Below, piece after piece: positions 2,431-27,773 of a DNA stretch of 42,244 nucleotides. The notes beneath the pieces are model-generated. The model was not told where the DNA came from, did no database searches, and was given only the letters and a program-made list of their open reading frames with translations. The stretch covers positions 1 to 42,244 of the forward strand of contig JAFGON010000029.1 of the NCBI GenBank assembly GCA_016926475.1, given 5' to 3'. Position 1 is the first letter of the stretch. Every line of letters begins with the position of its first letter. A program made the translations under genes and the position numbers. Source of the stretch: a candidate division WOR-3 bacterium. GTDB lineage: Bacteria; SDB-A.

Positions 2431-2459
2431 TTTCTAAAAACTAACATGGAACAGGTCAA
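2431..2459 (-). promoter_or_regulatory. Predicted sigma70-type promoter of iorAB
   Basis: On the minus strand, TTGACC (plus coordinates 2454-2459) is separated by exactly 17 bases from TAGAAA (2431-2436). It would start transcription near 2424, leaving a leader of about 16 bases before the iorA ATG. The call rests on consensus match and position only. Confidence 0.45.
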
Positions 2460-2523
2460 AAGGTCGAGAAAAATTTCATTCGGAGCGTTTTTTTATACAA
2501 AAAAAAGTTGCTTTTTTATCCGA

Positions 2524-2529
2524 TATAAT
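2524..2529 (+). promoter_or_regulatory. Perfect TATAAT -10 element upstream of the PorV/PorQ-family gene
   Basis: TATAAT lies 40 bases before the ATG at 2569. No good -35 hexamer is seen at normal spacing; the region upstream is an A/T tract, which could act as an UP-like element. The call is tentative. Confidence 0.35.
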
Positions 2530-2568
2530 GTAGTTAGAATGAGAATTCCAGCAATTTTGGAGGATTGT

Positions 2569-3486
2569 ATGAAGACTTTATTTTTTTCAGCTTTTTCGGC
2601 GATTTTTTTATCAGCTTCTGTTTTTGCCACAGAGCCATATTCAGGAGCGGGAACAAGCGGATTTAGCTTTCTAAAAATCACCGGTTCGGCAAAATCAGTG
2701 GCGATGTCGAGGACGGGTGTGGCGGGAGATGAATCCTATGGAATAAACCCAGCCTCGTTTTCAGGATCTGAGAAGTTTTTAAGCACATCATACTGTTACT
2801 TGATGCTCTCAACTCACACCGGTTCTTTATCTTATACCCAACCCCATTCCTTTGGTAATCTGTCCGGTTCAATGGACTATCTTTCTTCTCCAGGCATAGA
2901 AAAAACCGACCAGCAGGGAAACGTCCTGGGAGAGTTTTCCTACTCAATAATCATGCCCGGACTTGTTCTTGCGAAGGATATAAACCCGAATTTCAGCGCG
3001 GGTTTAGGCGCGAAATTTCTCTACAGTTCGGTTGATGAATACAACGCGGCGGTGTTTTCATTCAGCGCGGGAGGAATCTACAGATTTCCGGAAATCAATG
3101 GTTTTTCAATAGGCGCTTGTGTTGAAAACATAGGCCTGACGATTAAAGCTTACGACGAAGAAAAAGACCCACTGCCGCTGAAGTTCACGGGCGGAGTGTC
3201 TTTTGCACGTGATTTTTACGCACTCAACGCGGACTTTTCAAAGGCCTCCGACGCCAGATTTATTTTTGCCTTTGGCGGGGAAATCAAACCCTACAAAATG
3301 ATAGCTCTCAGAGCCGGTTATTCGACAAAAGGGACCGAATACAAGACAGGCGATTCAAACGACCTGATGTCCGGTATGAGTTTCGGAGCCGGATTCTTCC
3401 TTCAGAAGATTTCGCTGGATTATTCTTTTGTCCCGATGAAAGACCTCGGATACAGCCACAAAATAGGACTTAATTTTAACTTGTAA
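2569..3486 (+). CDS. PorV/PorQ (UPF0164)-family outer-membrane beta-barrel protein
   Basis: A 305-residue exported protein with a clear signal peptide (residues 1 to about 20, ending SVFATEP). The start of the mature part, GFSFLKITGSAKSVAMSRTG followed by an NPAS motif, matches the FLK...SAR..A(L/M)G...NPA signature of PorQ/PorV-like barrels. The rest is alternating glycine/aromatic-rich strands ending in the aromatic/hydrophobic C-terminus (FNL) expected for an outer-membrane barrel. I chose ATG 2569 because TTGGAGGA sits just upstream; an in-frame start 41 codons earlier would put basic, non-signal sequence before the signal peptide. Substrate and partner are unknown. A second family member is found at 26733. 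Confidence 0.78.
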   Translation: MKTLFFSAFSAIFLSASVFATEPYSGAGTSGFSFLKITGSAKSVAMSRTGVAGDESYGINPASFSGSEKFLSTSYCYLMLSTHTGSLSYTQPHSFGNLSGSMDYLSSPGIEKTDQQGNVLGEFSYSIIMPGLVLAKDINPNFSAGLGAKFLYSSVDEYNAAVFSFSAGGIYRFPEINGFSIGACVENIGLTIKAYDEEKDPLPLKFTGGVSFARDFYALNADFSKASDARFIFAFGGEIKPYKMIALRAGYSTKGTEYKTGDSNDLMSGMSFGAGFFLQKISLDYSFVPMKDLGYSHKIGLNFNL

Positions 3487-3508: not shown

Positions 3509-6500
3509 ATGCCAGATAAGAAAAAAATGAAAAAGAAGACCGGAAAACTAGTCTATTTTTTCGGCAAAGGCAAAGCTGACGGAAATGCAAAAATGAAAGA
3601 TTATCTTGGAGGCAAGGGCGCGAATTTAGCCGAGATGACCAACATCGGTCTCCCCGTTCCTCCTGGTTTCACCGTATCGGCGATTGTCTGCCAACTCTAC
3701 TACAATGGCGGGAAAAAATGGCCTGCCGGACTGTCGCAGGAAATCGAAGACAATTTGAAAAAACTCGAAAAGGTAACGGGAAAAAAATTTGGAGACCACA
3801 TAAATCCCTTACTCGTGTCGGTGAGGTCAGGCGCCGCCGTCTCCATGCCGGGGATGATGGACACTGTGCTAAACATAGGTCTCAACGAAGACACTTTGTC
3901 TGCTATTGCGAGCTTGACAGACAACCCGAGGTTTGCATGGGATTCCTACAGGCGGTTTATCCAGATGTTCGGAGATGTCGTGATGGGGGTACCTCATTCG
4001 TCTTTTGAAGACGAACTAAAAAGGGTGAAAGCTCAATACGGCAAAAAGCAGGACATTGAACTGACGTCTGAGGAGCTCAAGGAAGTCGTCCATGGATTCA
4101 AAGAAATTTACAAGAAGTTCACCAAAGAGGATTTCCCCAAAAACCCCAAGGATCAGCTCTACAAAGCAATAGACGCGGTGCTCGAATCCTGGAACAACGA
4201 AAGAGCTTTGAAATACAGAGAAATTCACGATATAAAGAATCTTCTCGGAACAGGCGTCAACGTTCAAGCAATGGTTTTCGGAAACATGGGAGAGTCTTCA
4301 GGAACCGGGGTGTGCTTCACGAGAGACGCCGGAACAGGGAAAAAAGAAATTCAAGGAGAATTCCTGATCAACGCCCAGGGGGAAGATGTCGTCGCGGGAA
4401 TAAGAACCCCTCTGCCGATAATAGAGCTGGAGAATATACTGCCTAAAAATTACGCCGAACTCGTAAAAATCTGCGATAGGCTCGAAAAGCACTACAGAGA
4501 CATGCAGGACCTTGAATTCACTATAGAACAGGGCAAACTCTTCATGCTCCAGACGAGAAACGGAAAAAGAAACGGAACTTCAGCCGTCAAAATAGCCAAA
4601 GAAATGGTCGAAGAAAAGCTCATTTCGAAAAAAGAAGCTATCATGAGAATAAACGCGGATTACATCGATCAGCTCCTGCATCCATCTTTCGCTGAAGAAG
4701 ACTTGAAAAAAGCCTCCCCTCTGACCAAGGGTTTGCCGGCTTCGCCTGGCGCGGCGGTCGGTCAGGTTGTTTTCACCGCCGCCGATGCTGTCAAGTGGGC
4801 GGAAGAGGGCAAAAAAGTGATACTGTGCAGAGTTGAGACCAGCCCTGAAGATGTCGCGGGAATGCACAAAGCGAACGGAATACTGACTTCAGTCGGAGGG
4901 ATGACGAGTCATGCCGCGGTCGTCGCGAGAGGATGGGGAAAATGCTGCGTCGTCGGAGCAGATGACGTCAACATAAATTATGCTGAAAAAAGCATGAAAA
5001 TTGCGGGAAAACTTTTCACCGAGGGAGACAACATTTCAATAGACGGTTCTACCGGGTATGTCTATGAAGGCGTTATCCCAACCAGATCGACGGAGATGTC
5101 TGACGATTTCAAGACCATAATGAAGTGGGCAGACGATATGAGAAGGTTGAAAATCCGAACCAATTCAGACTCCCCCCAGGACACTCGAAAAGCAGTTTCA
5201 CTGGGAGCCGAAGGCATTGGCCTTTGCAGGACAGAGCACATGTTTTTCGCGGAGGGAAGGATAAACGCTTTCAGAAGGCTGATTCTTTTCGCCTACGAAT
5301 CAAAACGCCTTGAAAAGTTGATAGGAAAAGCGGGGGAAAACGAACAGATAGAACTCAGAAAACAGCATGATTTTTCACTCACAGCATACAATAAAGCCCT
5401 CGACGAATTGCTCCCGTTTCAAAAAAACGACTTTGTTGGAATTTTTGAAGCGCTCGAAGGCAGACCGGCAACAATAAGGCTTTTAGACCCTCCTCTTCAT
5501 GAATTTTTGCCCAAAGAGATTAAGGACATGGAAGCCCTCGCTTCGGAGACAGGACTGTCGGTTGATAAAATCAGACAGATATCTGAAGACCTGCACGAAC
5601 AGAATCCGATGTTGGGACACAGGGGCTGCAGGCTTGGATTGACTTATCCTGAAATAACCAAGATGCAGGTAAGAGCGATAATTGAAGCGGCGATAGAGGT
5701 CAGAAAAGAGAAAGGCATCGAAACTCTTCCGGAAATTATGATACCGCTCGTGGGAGATTACAGGGAGTTGAAACTTTCAAGAGAAATAGCTCAGAAAGTT
5801 ATCGAAGACGTTTTCAAGGAAAAAGAAATCAAAGCCGGTTACGTAAAATATCTCATCGGAACCATGATAGAGGTTCCCAGAGCCGCTTTGACGGCTGATG
5901 AAATTGCAAGGTACGCCGATTTCTTCTCTTTCGGGACAAACGACCTGACACAAATGGGCGCCGGTTTTTCCAGAGACGACGCGGGTAAATTTCTCGGCGA
6001 TTACGTAGGGATGGGAATTTACGAAAAAGACCCTTTCCAGACTCTCGACAAAGTTGGCATCGGAAAGATGATAAAAATCGCTGTTTCTCTTGGAAGAGGG
6101 GAAAAGAAAGATCTTAAAATCGGAATATGCGGCGAGCATGGAGGAGATCCCGCTTCTATATATTTCTGCGATGAGGTCGGCATGAATTACGTCTCCTGTT
6201 CACCTCTCAGAGTTCCCATAGCCAGGCTTGCCGCGGCTCAGGCTGTAGAGGTCAATTCCGAGCATAAAGCAGCTCCGGTAAAAAAATCAGCCAAAACCGT
6301 CAAAAAGGTTTCAAAGAAGGTAAAACCAAAAACTCCGGTTAAGAAGACAATGGCCACTTCAAAAAAGAAGAGTTCTGTCAAAAAAACCGCTGAGAAAAAA
6401 ATCAAAAAAAGCCCTCCCAAAAAGAAAACAGTGAAAAAAGCTGAAGGGAAAAAAGCCAAAAAAATTGTCAGGGCTAAAATCTCGAAAAAAACCGTAAAAG

Positions 6501-6523
6501 GGGCTAAATCCAGAAAAAGATAG
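3509..6523 (+). CDS. ppdK: Pyruvate, phosphate dikinase with lysine-rich C-terminal tail
   Basis: Interconverts pyruvate, ATP and Pi with PEP, AMP and PPi; in anaerobes it serves PPi-linked glycolysis or gluconeogenesis. Domains in order: ATP-grasp nucleotide-binding domain (VYFFGKGKADGN, GGKGANLAEM, SVRSGAAVSMPGMMDT), phosphohistidine domain with catalytic His468 in GGMTSHAAVVARG, and PEP/pyruvate TIM barrel with GHRGCRLG, FGTNDLTQM, GICGEHGGDP and the acid/base Cys897 in YVSCSPLRVPIARLAAAQA. The core ends near residue 915, matching normal PPDKs. Residues 920-1004 are an in-frame extension with 36 Lys in 85 residues. AAGGAGG lies eight bases before ATG 3509. A strong terminator follows. Confidence 0.96.
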   Translation: MPDKKKMKKKTGKLVYFFGKGKADGNAKMKDYLGGKGANLAEMTNIGLPVPPGFTVSAIVCQLYYNGGKKWPAGLSQEIEDNLKKLEKVTGKKFGDHINPLLVSVRSGAAVSMPGMMDTVLNIGLNEDTLSAIASLTDNPRFAWDSYRRFIQMFGDVVMGVPHSSFEDELKRVKAQYGKKQDIELTSEELKEVVHGFKEIYKKFTKEDFPKNPKDQLYKAIDAVLESWNNERALKYREIHDIKNLLGTGVNVQAMVFGNMGESSGTGVCFTRDAGTGKKEIQGEFLINAQGEDVVAGIRTPLPIIELENILPKNYAELVKICDRLEKHYRDMQDLEFTIEQGKLFMLQTRNGKRNGTSAVKIAKEMVEEKLISKKEAIMRINADYIDQLLHPSFAEEDLKKASPLTKGLPASPGAAVGQVVFTAADAVKWAEEGKKVILCRVETSPEDVAGMHKANGILTSVGGMTSHAAVVARGWGKCCVVGADDVNINYAEKSMKIAGKLFTEGDNISIDGSTGYVYEGVIPTRSTEMSDDFKTIMKWADDMRRLKIRTNSDSPQDTRKAVSLGAEGIGLCRTEHMFFAEGRINAFRRLILFAYESKRLEKLIGKAGENEQIELRKQHDFSLTAYNKALDELLPFQKNDFVGIFEALEGRPATIRLLDPPLHEFLPKEIKDMEALASETGLSVDKIRQISEDLHEQNPMLGHRGCRLGLTYPEITKMQVRAIIEAAIEVRKEKGIETLPEIMIPLVGDYRELKLSREIAQKVIEDVFKEKEIKAGYVKYLIGTMIEVPRAALTADEIARYADFFSFGTNDLTQMGAGFSRDDAGKFLGDYVGMGIYEKDPFQTLDKVGIGKMIKIAVSLGRGEKKDLKIGICGEHGGDPASIYFCDEVGMNYVSCSPLRVPIARLAAAQAVEVNSEHKAAPVKKSAKTVKKVSKKVKPKTPVKKTMATSKKKSSVKKTAEKKIKKSPPKKKTVKKAEGKKAKKIVRAKISKKTVKGAKSRKR
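6266..6523 (+). other. Histone-H1-like lysine-rich tail encoded at the 3' end of ppdK
   Basis: The last 85 codons of ppdK encode 36 Lys and 3 Arg against only 2 Glu, with Ala, Pro, Ser, Thr and Val as nearly the only other residues, in repeats of the type (A/T/S)VKK and KKSxKK. This composition resembles bacterial histone-H1-like proteins and the KP/KA tails of some DNA-binding proteins. The reading frame is continuous from the PPDK core with no stop or frame change, so it is part of the same polypeptide. Its function is unknown; binding to nucleic acid or another polyanion is an inference. Confidence 0.85.
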
Positions 6524-6543: not shown

Positions 6544-6566
6544 AGCCCCGCTTTTGCGGGGCTTTC
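6544..6566 (+). terminator. Rho-independent terminator after ppdK
   Basis: A perfect 8-bp inverted repeat, AGCCCCGC (6544-6551) and GCGGGGCT (6556-6563), encloses a TTTT loop and is followed by a short T-rich stretch. It sits 20 bases past the ppdK stop and 22 bases before the next start. It is the only strong intrinsic terminator I found in the window. Confidence 0.85.
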
Positions 6567-22356: not shown

Positions 22357-22542
22357 ATGCTTGATAAAAGACTGCTCGACATTATGGTCTGTCCAAAATG
22401 CAAAGGAGAACTTGAATACAAATCTGATATAAACAGGCTTTTGTGTAAAAAATGCAAACTTGCATACAAGATTGAGGATGACATACCAATAATGCTCATA
22501 GACGAAGCTGAGAGCATTGAAGGGGATTTATATGGGAATTAG
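22357..22542 (+). CDS. Trm112/UPF0434-family zinc-binding protein
   Basis: A 61-residue protein with two CxxC pairs (CPKCKG and CKKCKL) and the family ending DDIPIMLIDEAE. It is the YcaR/UPF0434 type, related to Trm112, a small zinc protein that activates methyltransferases in eukaryotes and archaea. The bacterial role is not established. Length is normal (about 55-65). ATG 22357 has AAAGGAG upstream. Its last 11 bases overlap the start of the C25 peptidase gene, so the two are probably translated together, though a functional link is not obvious. Confidence 0.9.
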   Translation: MLDKRLLDIMVCPKCKGELEYKSDINRLLCKKCKLAYKIEDDIPIMLIDEAESIEGDLYGN

Positions 22543-25500
22543 AACCGCCGCCGCAGGACTTTTATTTTTTGTGATTTCTCTCGGAGTTCTCAGATCCGAA
22601 AGTTTTTTTGTGGACTGGGAGGTGCCCGAAATAGCCATTGAGGAAGTTTCTACTTCAACTGGAGTCTTTTCCGAAATAAAATACGGAGCTGAAATGTCCT
22701 GCTTTGGAGAAACCGGAGCTCCGATTCTTCCTTCGAAATCATTTATTTTTATTGTACCTCCGATAGGTTCCTACTCTTTCGACGTCACATTATCAGGATC
22801 GAGGGCTTATAAACTCGAAAATCCGGTTCTTCCCTTCCCTCGTTGGCAGGGCGAAGAGCTCTCGTTTATTCCCGAAGAAAAGCATTATAAGAGCGTTTAT
22901 CCGGGCGTTTCTTACACGGAATCAAGACCTTTCAGGATGGGTTATTGGAAGCTTGTCCGTATAGAGGTCTATCCCGCTTCTCTTTCCGGCAACAATCTCG
23001 TGGTAGCGGAAAAGATAAAAATCAAAGCGAATTTTTCTGATTACAGTTCCTCGAATCCGCCCTCTGAGTCTTGGAAGAGAATAATTTCTTTTATGACGGC
23101 AAATCCTTCTTATTTGGAAAAATTTTCAATCGCTGAAAATACCAGTATGCGGATGTTTTCAAGCAGACCTTACTATAGGGTCTCCGTCATTGAAGAAGGA
23201 CTTTATGAAGTGACAGGTTCGGACCTGCAGTCTGCGGGTGCGAATTTGGACGCCATAGACCCCTCCACGATATCTGTTCTCTGCGGAAAAGTAGAGGCTT
23301 TGAGTTGGTTTACCACGGACACCATATACGACAGTTTTCCCTATGAACTGCCGATTATTGTAGAAGACGGAGGAGACGACAGGTTTGACGAACAAGACAG
23401 AATTATTTTCTACAATTCTTCCCTGGCCGGTTACGATAAAAATTCGTTTCCTTACAGCGTTTTGTCCTACCACAGCCCCTGGTCTGACACGGCGGTCTAT
23501 TGGATAGCATGGGGACAAGGTGATGGCAGACGAATTGTCAACGAAAATTCTCTGCCATTGACAGGGTCGAACATACAGACATCGTTTATCGACACTGTTC
23601 ACATTGAGACCGACAGCCTAAACCCTTCTCAATCAGGGCTGAGGTTTATCCACAGGGAGATAGCGAGAAACACCGGCGATGAATACGCCGGTTTTTCAAT
23701 CAGCTATGATGTCCACGGTGTAGCCGGAGCGGCAGAACTGCGTCTTCAAAATTTTTCAGAAGCTGTGGATTCGGTCAACGCCCATCAACTCAGGGTTGTA
23801 TTAAACGGCAACCAGATCGGAACCGACGAGTGGTGGGGTAGTGAATACTCGTCATCCCCCAGAGTTTCGGTTTTCAATTGTGACGGAATTCTAAGAGAGG
23901 GATCAAACACTCAGGAAGTTCAGCTATACAGAGTTCATCCGAACACGAACGATTTTTTGATGTACGACCTCACCGACGTCATCTACCAGAGGAAATACAC
24001 CGCCCACGACGGCACACTCGTCTTTGGCGTCAACCCCGGAGTCAGTGACACTGTTCTCGGATTCAACGTCAAAGGCGTAAACCAGGGCAATTTCTACCTT
24101 TGGAACATTGACGACCCTTACAACCCAACGGGAATAATTGGATGCGCCTTTTCAGGCGACACCGTAAAATTCGCCTGGAGAGGAGATTCATCTTCGAGGT
24201 TTGTCGTTTCAAACAACATAAAAAGACCGGTGAATATAAGATACGCGGACCCGAACAGCCTCAAGATGATTTCGGGAGCAGATTACATTATAATAGCGCC
24301 TGATAATTTCATGAACGCCGCGGAAAAACTTGCTTCTCACAGAAGAGTTCATTTTCCCGGAGGAATAACACCTCAAGTGATAACAGTAAGCATTCAGGAG
24401 GTTTATGACAATTTCGGCTACGGGATGTCAGACCCGACAGCTATTAGAAACTACCTCAAGTGGGCTTCGGAGCACTACAACCCTGTTCCGAGCTATGTCC
24501 TTTTTATGGGGTCTGGGACTTACGACTACAGAAACATAGAGAACAGGTCACCTTTCAGGGGGGTATTTCCAGCTCATGAGGAAGGTGGAACCGTCGCGTA
24601 TTTTTCAATGCAGGACTTCAACCCATGTTTTGACGACTGGTTTGTCGATTTCGACGGGAACCGTTTTCCTGACATGTGCGTCGGAAGAATAACCGCTTTG
24701 ACCAACGTCGACATAAGTCAAAATATCGAAAAAATAATAAGGTATGAAAATTCTTCTTCTTTCGGAACCTGGAAGAGCAGGGTTCTTTTTCTTGCAGACG
24801 ACGAATATGCATCGAGAGTATCGCAGTCATACAATGAATACATACACAACTACCAGACTGAAAGCATTTCGAGCTTTCTCTCAAATGACTACCAGCAGGT
24901 CAAAGTTTATTTGATGAACTATTTGGGCACCAACCAAGTCGCTGGACCGCCCTACAATTATGACCCGGGAGAAAAACCTGTCGGAGCGCAGGACCTAAAA
25001 AGTGAAATCAACAAAGGAGCTTTCATGCTCCTTTTCATGGGACATGGCAACCTGACAGTTCTCACCCACGAGGCGGTTTTCAGAAATCCATCGGACGTCG
25101 ACGCCCTTGAGAACGAGATAAGACAACCCATCTGCTATTTCGGCTCCTGCGGAGTTGGAGCTTTCGACAGGACCACTTACAGCTCGATGGCTGACGGAAT
25201 ACAGGTCAAACCCGACCGGGGGGCGATATTCTCCTGGGGCGCTTCAAGGGCTACTTATCCCTCAGACAACTATCCTCTCGCGGTCAATCTGATGACATAC
25301 ACAACAGACAACCACTTGTCACCCGGAGAAGTGACTTTGGTTGTGAAAAATATAATCCACGCGAACAGTTGGCATTACTTGTCATTCGGAGATCCAGCAC
25401 TCATACCATTCAAAGATACACTGGGAATAACGCTGGGTTTAGAAAGAGACAGAGAATTGTCTTCGCTTTCGCAAAGAAATATATCAACCAATTCAGTGGA

Positions 25501-26593
25501 ACATTCTATTGCGGCCTCTTTCACTTTGGCGCCCGTTGACACTGTCGACGGAAGGGTTAATTACACGCTGACCGGAAGCATAGGCGATCCTTCATTCGGA
25601 GACGGATGGGCTTCGGTCATTGTCATGCCCCCTCAGAGACCGGACAGCCACGACTACATGCACAGAGCGGTGCCCCTGCCTGGAGACTTCACGTACTATT
25701 ATTCAGACCAGTTCATCCCGGGACTCCCAATTTACGAAGTGATGACGACGGTAAAAGACAACGTTTTCACCGCTTCATTTACAACCCCGGAAAAAATGCT
25801 TCGATCCGGCGATCAAACCGGCATGAGGAAATTCATGGTCTACGCCTACGCTTGGAATTCTTCGAGAGAGGCGAGGGGAAACCTCCAACTTCCCTGCTCT
25901 GGAATTGACGAGATGCCTTCTGGCGACACGTCGGCTCCGAAAGTTTCTATTCTCGTAAAAGGCAGAATACTCTCGGATTCAGGAGAAACCGTCCAGAACC
26001 CGCTTGAAGTTGAATTCGTCTTCGAAGACGTCAACGGAATTAATCTTACGCCGCTTCCAGAAAACGTGCTGTTTTTCCGAATAGACAACGAAGCTTTGGA
26101 CACTTTGGCGGGAAGACTTTTCAAATACGACGTATCGAGCAGTGAAAGAGGCAGGATAAAGAAAACTTACGATTTTGGAAATGAATCCGGAGAACACGAG
26201 CTGACAGTGGGAGTTTCAGACAATTTGGGCAACAGGGGAGTATATACTTGGACTTTCAACGTTGAATCCTCTTCTGTTCCAGACATAACCAACATAATGA
26301 ATTTTCCAAACCCTATGGAGACTTCCACCCATTTCACTTTTATTCTCACTTCTGGATACGCCGATGTGAAAATTGAAATTTACACTATTTCCGGTAAATT
26401 GATAAAAGTCGTTGAAGCCGGGGAGGTGACAAGCGGCTTCAACAGCGTTTTTTGGGATGGTTTTGATTCAGAGGGAGACAGACCCTCCAACGGAGTCTAC
26501 CTCTACAGGATTGTGGCTGACACAAGAAGCTCACAGACCCAGGGTTCCGAAAGGGAGGTATCAAGAATCGGCAAACTCTTCATAGCGAGATAA
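22532..26593 (+). CDS. porU: PorU-like C25 (gingipain-family) cysteine peptidase with FlgD-like C-terminal domain
   Basis: A 1353-residue secreted protein. Order: signal peptide (1 to about 24), C25 propeptide-like domain (to about 200), a PorU-type region with YYRVSVIEEGLYEVTGSDLQ, then the caspase-like C25 catalytic domain (about 580-970) with His838 (FMGHGN) and Cys873 (YFGSCGVG). The C-terminal FlgD-Ig/T9SS type A-like domain (about 1265-1353) has FPNPM, IYTISGKLI, WDGFDSEG and NGVYLYRI. In Bacteroidota, PorU is the type IX sortase that cuts the C-terminal signal and links cargo to LPS, and it keeps its own such domain. Pairing with PorV downstream supports this. ATG 22532 follows AAGGGGA. 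It could instead be an ordinary secreted C25 peptidase. Confidence 0.8.
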   Translation: MGIRTAAAGLLFFVISLGVLRSESFFVDWEVPEIAIEEVSTSTGVFSEIKYGAEMSCFGETGAPILPSKSFIFIVPPIGSYSFDVTLSGSRAYKLENPVLPFPRWQGEELSFIPEEKHYKSVYPGVSYTESRPFRMGYWKLVRIEVYPASLSGNNLVVAEKIKIKANFSDYSSSNPPSESWKRIISFMTANPSYLEKFSIAENTSMRMFSSRPYYRVSVIEEGLYEVTGSDLQSAGANLDAIDPSTISVLCGKVEALSWFTTDTIYDSFPYELPIIVEDGGDDRFDEQDRIIFYNSSLAGYDKNSFPYSVLSYHSPWSDTAVYWIAWGQGDGRRIVNENSLPLTGSNIQTSFIDTVHIETDSLNPSQSGLRFIHREIARNTGDEYAGFSISYDVHGVAGAAELRLQNFSEAVDSVNAHQLRVVLNGNQIGTDEWWGSEYSSSPRVSVFNCDGILREGSNTQEVQLYRVHPNTNDFLMYDLTDVIYQRKYTAHDGTLVFGVNPGVSDTVLGFNVKGVNQGNFYLWNIDDPYNPTGIIGCAFSGDTVKFAWRGDSSSRFVVSNNIKRPVNIRYADPNSLKMISGADYIIIAPDNFMNAAEKLASHRRVHFPGGITPQVITVSIQEVYDNFGYGMSDPTAIRNYLKWASEHYNPVPSYVLFMGSGTYDYRNIENRSPFRGVFPAHEEGGTVAYFSMQDFNPCFDDWFVDFDGNRFPDMCVGRITALTNVDISQNIEKIIRYENSSSFGTWKSRVLFLADDEYASRVSQSYNEYIHNYQTESISSFLSNDYQQVKVYLMNYLGTNQVAGPPYNYDPGEKPVGAQDLKSEINKGAFMLLFMGHGNLTVLTHEAVFRNPSDVDALENEIRQPICYFGSCGVGAFDRTTYSSMADGIQVKPDRGAIFSWGASRATYPSDNYPLAVNLMTYTTDNHLSPGEVTLVVKNIIHANSWHYLSFGDPALIPFKDTLGITLGLERDRELSSLSQRNISTNSVEHSIAASFTLAPVDTVDGRVNYTLTGSIGDPSFGDGWASVIVMPPQRPDSHDYMHRAVPLPGDFTYYYSDQFIPGLPIYEVMTTVKDNVFTASFTTPEKMLRSGDQTGMRKFMVYAYAWNSSREARGNLQLPCSGIDEMPSGDTSAPKVSILVKGRILSDSGETVQNPLEVEFVFEDVNGINLTPLPENVLFFRIDNEALDTLAGRLFKYDVSSSERGRIKKTYDFGNESGEHELTVGVSDNLGNRGVYTWTFNVESSSVPDITNIMNFPNPMETSTHFTFILTSGYADVKIEIYTISGKLIKVVEAGEVTSGFNSVFWDGFDSEGDRPSNGVYLYRIVADTRSSQTQGSEREVSRIGKLFIAR

Positions 26594-26732: not shown

Positions 26733-27773
26733 TTGAAGAAGATAATATTTGCCTTAACTCTACTCTTTATTTTGGTTCAGTCCATATGGGCGAGCACAAA
26801 CCAGGCGGCAGCTATTTTCCTCACAATATTTCCTGGGGCGAGGTCTGTGGGTATGGGCGGCGCCTACACGGCGATTTCTGACGACGCTTTCGCCTGCTAC
26901 TATAACCCGGCTGGTTTGGGTTTTATAGACACAAAAGTATTTTCGCTGATGCACGCCAACTGGCTCCCGGGCCTTTACCCGAGTATGTATTATGAATACC
27001 TGGGTTTTGCAATGCCTGTGAGCGACATTGGAACACTCGGGCTGAACTTTATATACCTGACTACGGGAGAGACGGAAGCCACGGATGAAAACGGAAACCA
27101 GATAGCGAAGTTCAGAACATTCGATTTGGCCGCGACGGCGAATTACGGCGTAGCCCTTTCCGACAAGCTTTCCGTAGGACTCGGTCTAAAGTTTATATAC
27201 AGTTATTTAGCACCTTCCTGGCTTGTCAGCAGGCTGCTCAACACAAAAGGAGGAGGAGCCGGATCTTCCTGGGCTCTGGACGGCGGTGTTTTATACAAAC
27301 CTTTCAGAAGCTTTTCTCTCGGGGCTTCCATTCAAAATATCGGCCCCGGCTTGAGTTACACTGAGACTGGCGAGAAGGACCCTCTTCCTCAGACTGTCAG
27401 GTTGGGTGTTTCATACCTTCTGGCGTCATACGAAAATCTTGAAGATTCGACTTTGGTCCCCAAAAAATTGTGGGAAGCGAGATTTTCTTTCGACCTCGTA
27501 AAAGTTGTCGTAGGCCTGATGGATGAGATCAAAGAAAGACAGTACAGTTATATTTGGGACGACACGTGGAAAGCTATGGGGTTGGAACTCGGATACTATG
27601 AAATGATCTATTTCAGGCTCGGCTATTTCATAGACGAAGCCGGCTCGAGAAAAGGTTTTACTTACGGCGGAGGGGTCAAATTCAGAAATTTCAATTTTGA
27701 CCTTGGTATAGACTCGCCCCTTTACGATTTTCCCACGAGCAACTACAGGTTCACTTTGAATGTATGGTGGTGA
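26733..27773 (+). CDS. porV: PorV-like outer-membrane protein
   Basis: A 346-residue outer-membrane barrel with signal peptide (1 to about 20, ending SIWAS). The N-terminal signature AAAIFLTIFPGARSVGMGGAYTAISDDAFACYYNPAGLGF is the FadL-like PorV family motif (the quoted stretch spans residues about 26-65; key parts are ARSVGMGG and NPAGL). Barrel strands follow to a C-terminal aromatic end (LNVWW), as expected for outer-membrane insertion. In type IX secretion PorV carries cargo to PorU, and here it follows the PorU-like gene. Translation starts at TTG 26733, five bases after AGGAGGA; the nearby ATG runs into a stop after one codon. Confidence 0.82.
   Translation: MKKIIFALTLLFILVQSIWASTNQAAAIFLTIFPGARSVGMGGAYTAISDDAFACYYNPAGLGFIDTKVFSLMHANWLPGLYPSMYYEYLGFAMPVSDIGTLGLNFIYLTTGETEATDENGNQIAKFRTFDLAATANYGVALSDKLSVGLGLKFIYSYLAPSWLVSRLLNTKGGGAGSSWALDGGVLYKPFRSFSLGASIQNIGPGLSYTETGEKDPLPQTVRLGVSYLLASYENLEDSTLVPKKLWEARFSFDLVKVVVGLMDEIKERQYSYIWDDTWKAMGLELGYYEMIYFRLGYFIDEAGSRKGFTYGGGVKFRNFNFDLGIDSPLYDFPTSNYRFTLNVWW

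Follow-up and report, generated by a model that had tools for sequence, protein, structure and literature searches.

Why should an enzyme of central carbon metabolism end in a tail that resembles a histone? This question is raised by a gene for pyruvate phosphate dikinase (PPDK) on contig JAFGON010000029.1 of a candidate division WOR-3 bacterium, in the 42,244-nucleotide stretch of DNA analyzed here (hereafter, the window). A first-pass annotation, made from the letters of the DNA, had described the PPDK core as ending near residue 915 and continuing in frame into a Lys-rich, histone-H1-like tail, which could bind DNA, RNA, or polyphosphate, or tether the enzyme to the nucleoid. The features of the locus are summarized in Table 1.

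The ppdK reading frame starts with ATG and runs through 1004 codons in a single frame, with zero internal stops in the translation. The product passed the curated equivalog cut-off of TIGR01828 (1315.7 bits; cut-off 843.45) and contained the Pfam domains PPDK_N, PEP-utilizers, and PEP-utilizers_C. Its core was approximately 52-55% identical to solved PPDKs, with which it shared the catalytic His and Cys and the domain order, and the structural model matched 5jvl (Foldseek E 4.2e-94, TM 0.86 by target). In an alignment of 13 PPDKs, Asp334, Glu336, and Gln348 were invariant and Arg106 was nearly invariant; the roles of these ATP-grasp residues, as well as those of His468 and Cys874, are presumably the ones known from PPDK biochemistry. 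The window's genome has a single PPDK; no second protein matched it at E 0.001, and hence no relative of PEP synthase or PTS enzyme I was seen. Compared with the PPDK of C. symbiosum (1KBL), the window protein has extra residues at 913-1004 and approximately 30 more at 594-628; the latter correspond to the gap separating the aligned phmmer stretches 23-594 and 623-913, in a region predicted to form helices at 584-607 and 610-649 (AlphaFold). The solved PPDKs matched were 850-913 residues long, too short to hold a tail of the type found in the window. These results indicate that the core is intact and, judged from its sequence, catalytically complete, with AMP + PPi + PEP -> ATP + Pi + pyruvate as the predicted activity.

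Table 1. Features of the ppdK locus, in positions of the window
Feature	Position	Strand	Basis or remark
ppdK, pyruvate phosphate dikinase with C-terminal Lys-rich extension	3509..6523	+	1004 aa
Short Lys-rich N-terminus MPDKKKMKKKTGK, preceding the first domain, predicted disordered	3509..3547	+	translation; residues 1-11 pLDDT <50
His468 codon, within GGMTSHAAVVARG; aligns with the C. symbiosum phospho-carrier His	4910..4912	+	alignment to chain 9pzl; invariant in 13 PPDKs
Residues 594-628, with ~30 residues more than the C. symbiosum enzyme; predicted to lie in a helical hairpin	5288..5392	+	phmmer gap, AlphaFold
Cys874 codon in GICGEHGGDP, catalytic Cys of the PEP/pyruvate domain	6128..6130	+	invariant in 13 PPDKs
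Lys-rich disordered tail with Ala/Ser/Thr/Pro/Val (residues 913-1004)	6245..6520	+	composition; pLDDT <50 at 921-1004
Terminator-like hairpin, 8 bp, 7 GC pairs	6544..6563	+	starts ~20 bases past the ppdK stop

The border between core and tail was located at approximately residue 912-914 (SCSPLRVPIARLAAAQA; the last letters of the core are LAAAQA), which confirmed the in-frame tail described earlier. Most PPDKs stop 10-13 residues past the PIAR motif. The 92 residues of the tail include 36 Lys, 3 Arg, and 4 Glu (2 of them in the last 86 residues), with no Asp, a net charge of +35, and 13 KK pairs. The tail leaves the core past the last helix (899-920), and residues 921-1004 have a pLDDT of 25-33 and zero secondary structure in the AlphaFold prediction. 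It is thus predicted to be disordered, strongly cationic, and low in acidic residues, which is the profile of nucleic-acid-binding Lys-rich tails.

An assembly error, a frameshift, or a fusion artefact could produce such an extension, and the assembly that contains the window is indeed a draft, in 106 contigs. However, Lys codons are used in the same way in the tail and in the core (AAA:AAG of 28:8 and 39:12, respectively), a hairpin follows the stop codon (0.7 such hairpins are expected in shuffles of the region), and a tail occupies the same position in three separately assembled species. An artefact was therefore rejected, and we assign it practically no probability.

The tail is also an outlier in its own genome. 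Across the 2.04 of 2.15 Mb that were scanned (~95%; ~1,900 ORFs), it ranked first for lysine (35 per 80 aa; runner-up 24) and for net charge (+36 per 80 aa; runner-up +22), and no other ORF contained a comparable segment. The second rank in lysine per 80 aa belonged to L242 (G000:C57, 3650-5560, minus strand), which by eye is a sigma-70-like factor with a Lys-rich N-terminus. A scan of the genome for AARAAR-repeat patterns yielded no Lys-rich tail comparable to that of PPDK. Searches with the tail alone against the family genomes and the PDB returned no match beyond the tail itself, probably as an effect of composition correction, which removes Lys-rich matches; for this reason, the sequence was scanned directly for Lys-rich segments. 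Additionally, NCBIfam NF011492 (valyl-tRNA synthetase) weakly matched PPDK residues 909-1002 (E 6.7e-5) over model positions 962-1040 of 1044, the C-terminal end of the model; this hints that some aminoacyl-tRNA synthetases may also have Lys-rich C-termini.

Tails of 137 and 175 aa, with net charges of +52 and +71, respectively, were found in both other species of the genus that were examined, and the PPDK of the sister genus ends in a tail of 30 aa (+14); throughout the lineage, acidic residues are almost absent from the tails and no stop interrupts them. The tails could hardly be aligned: 0 to 5 of 300 shuffles reached the observed score, and part of this signal reflects KK spacing, as one tail from a different family scored equally. 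Sequence order is barely conserved in the lineage, and charge density and KK spacing are conserved. This pattern bears out the suggestion that the tail would be kept in position and not in exact sequence. Its absence from close relatives, which had been named as a sign of assembly error or single-strain drift, was not observed at the level of sister species. One sibling's tail is encoded by 15-bp tandem repeats specifying VKKAT/VKKTP-like pentapeptides, a likely route for length change; DNA-level tandem repeats are nearly absent from the window. The two sibling tails scored 38.7 bits (only just short) and 25.5 bits against Pfam HC2 (PF07382; cut-off 40), and the window tail did not match this model. 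In composition, the window tail is H1/Hc2-like.

Gene order is common to the genus as well, with a PorV-like gene upstream of ppdK and ugd downstream. In the window, PorV-like genes were recognized by eye at 2446-3486 and 26733-27773, and positions 22517-26593 encode a 1358-aa protein that looks, again by eye, like a C25 (gingipain-like) peptidase with an FlgD-like C-terminal domain. The C25-like peptidase and the PorV-like genes may indicate a type IX secretion setting.

The variation in the family could reflect tolerated low-complexity growth, in which an A-rich 3' end was lengthened by short duplications into a harmless extension with no selected function. The spread of tail lengths in the family (30 to 175 aa), the 15-bp repeats of one sibling, the hardly conserved residue order, and the tail-less PPDKs of most lineages are all consistent with this explanation. 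Nevertheless, the charge was kept (+35, +52, +71, and +14) with near-zero acidic residues and no stop, and the window's genome has no other such segment, so that it does not appear to accumulate growth of this kind in general. Tolerated growth would also have to account for the independent appearance of such tails on the C-termini of other PPDKs, described below, and we consider it rather unlikely.

Outside the family, none of the genomes compared is closer than the domain level. A genome-contig scan, which leaves out the window's own record, gave 80 PPDK loci, of which L064 (Planctomycetota) has a long Lys-rich tail, of 50 aa, and two others have short ones of ~20 aa. With loci from whole genomes added, Lys-rich tails, defined as at least 15 aa with at least 30% Lys+Arg, were found on 10 of 107 PPDKs. 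When tail and no-tail labels were placed on a FastTree tree of these 107 proteins, seven changes (gains and losses pooled) were counted, at least five of them forced by well-supported branches. In a survey with a C-terminal model, PPDK was present in 318 of 386 genomes, and at least 15 genomes from 11 families matched the model, with no intervening stop, to position 285 or further, which lies ~35 positions beyond the point where the core usually ends; this is a rough count, in which some tails were read directly and the rest depend on a model built from tailed PPDKs. These results suggest that similar Lys-rich tails evolved repeatedly on the PPDKs of unrelated bacteria. Together with the tails of the genus and sister genus, this recurrence makes drift and assembly error unlikely. 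The PPDK of L021 (G017), from another family, has both a short Lys/Arg-rich tail and, in the PEP-binding domain, a Cys-rich insertion that resembles a zinc ribbon (CEKCGGELDESFTCGTCGG; approximately columns 170-200 in the alignment of PPDK C-terminal domains).

The reading we prefer, and to which we give an even chance, is that the disordered, polycationic tail anchors the enzyme to a polyanion, with nucleic acid as the likeliest candidate. An intrinsically disordered polycation would extend the C-terminus of a catalytically complete PPDK and bind a cellular polyanion, most probably rRNA, mRNA, tRNA, or nucleoid DNA; binding would concentrate or immobilise the enzyme, with the tail outside catalysis, and localisation would be the selected function. 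This reading draws on an intact core with an in-frame tail in three species of the genus and a shorter one in the sister genus, on charge density and KK spacing retained while sequence drifts and length changes rapidly, on the top cationic rank among ~1,900 ORFs, and on predicted disorder beyond the point where the tail exits the core past its last helix. It also draws on the HC2 similarity of the sibling tails and the Hc2-reminiscent pentapeptide repeats of one of them, and on the recurrence, with at least five forced changes on the PPDK tree and 11 families by model match. By analogy, nucleic-acid binding and localisation as the selected function are both plausible. The tail-less state of most PPDKs and the missing HC2 match of the window tail count against the anchor, as does the fast diffusion of small molecules in a bacterium, which makes any gain from placing PPDK uncertain.

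Any polycation binds polyanions in vitro, and composition therefore cannot name the ligand among DNA, RNA, an anionic membrane, and an acidic protein. The tail might accordingly attach the enzyme to an acidic protein or to anionic lipids of the membrane, possibly close to the membrane pyrophosphatase; it might also regulate the core, with lysine acetylation as a switch. The membrane H+-PPase of the family shares the PPi pool with PPDK, and the cores of the genus are near neutral to slightly acidic (net charges of -2, -7, and -12), which would suit such roles. However, only 4 of the 92 tail residues are of the F/W/Y/L/I/M/C type useful for membrane insertion (Val excluded from the count), no helix is predicted in the tail, and the core is not strongly acidic; we regard a non-nucleic anchor or a regulatory tail as unlikely. 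Polyphosphate was another proposed ligand. PPDK acts on PPi rather than on polyphosphate, and searches of four family genomes for PPK1 (PF13090) and PPK2 (PF03976) detected neither kinase, whereas control genomes were positive. These findings weaken the polyphosphate idea, which we consider very improbable despite a composition like that of AlgP, a polyphosphate-granule protein for which binding of this kind has been proposed in granule association (PMC9239181).

Pyruvate kinase (PF00224) and family I soluble pyrophosphatase (PF00719) are also missing from these four genomes, which contain a membrane H+-PPase and HU. No family II pyrophosphatase motif was detected in the scanned ORFs by a crude test. 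The window's genome encodes a PPi-type phosphofructokinase (NF010675, 458 bits; cut-off 273). Without pyruvate kinase and family I pyrophosphatase, and with the membrane PPase and the PPi-type phosphofructokinase, glycolysis in the lineage is probably PPi-based. The PPi glycolysis of C. thermocellum is alike in having PPDK and PPi-PFK, no detectable pyruvate kinase, and a membrane PPase in place of the soluble enzyme (PMC7657619). In our lineage, PPDK probably works in the direction PEP -> pyruvate, with a malate shunt as a possible alternative.

Translation and nucleic-acid synthesis release PPi, tRNA charging releases AMP, and PPDK makes ATP from PEP with PPi and AMP as co-substrates. A more specific, and distinctly doubtful, form of the anchor is that, in cells with PPi glycolysis, the tail keeps PPDK close to ribosomes, to tRNA, or to the nucleoid, coupling energy recovery to the source of PPi; that tethering would aid PPi/AMP recycling is speculation. 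Such placement fits the PPi-based metabolism of the lineage. On the other hand, small molecules diffuse fast in a bacterium, which argues against a large gain from placing PPDK. The idea that tails track the loss of pyruvate kinase, which also bears on placement, was not supported: the kinase was missing from 7 of 15 tailed genomes, the tailed set being the matches listed, versus 97 of 318 PPDK genomes (Fisher p=0.25; 55 genomes with pyruvate kinase but without a PPDK match were listed by hand).

No paper on Lys-rich PPDK tails was found among the open-access papers searched. The locus presents a familiar enzyme that bears a histone-H1-like tail, in an arrangement that recurs. Should this tail bind nucleic acid, it would tether an enzyme of core metabolism to the nucleoid or to the translation apparatus, and the repeated origins of such tails on PPDK would offer natural replicates for asking whether the placement of a PPi-using enzyme matters. 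For annotation, Lys-rich C-termini of metabolic enzymes may be overlooked, as composition filters may hide them. Metabolic proteins have been reported to be depleted of low-complexity regions, based on earlier, mainly eukaryotic work, and Lys-rich regions of this type in prokaryotes have been linked to nucleic-acid binding (PMC6821194).

Several known systems resemble the tailed PPDK. The Pseudomonas proteins AlgP and PhaF also join a disordered, Lys-rich C-terminal polycation to an unrelated N-terminal domain, and their C-terminal domains have been linked to DNA and granule placement (PMC9239181, PMC3574117). Unlike them, the PPDK tail has no KPAA repeats (as defined in PMC9239181), and its carrier is a soluble metabolic enzyme in a family without polyphosphate kinase. 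Chlamydial Hc2/HctB (PF07382) is similar in the Lys-rich pentapeptide-like repeats of one sibling, in the near-threshold score of the other sibling's tail (38.7 bits; cut-off 40), and in length variation among relatives, which in Hc2 follows repeat number (PMC2848022); it differs as a stand-alone nucleoid protein whose model the window tail does not match. In the enzyme topoisomerase I (TopA) of Streptomyces, the C-terminal part contains Lys repeats like those of histone H1, which stabilise the enzyme-DNA complex (PMC7398561), although TopA acts on DNA and PPDK has no nucleic-acid substrate. With AlgP, PhaF, Hc2, and Streptomyces TopA as precedents, tethering of PPDK to the nucleoid appears plausible by analogy.
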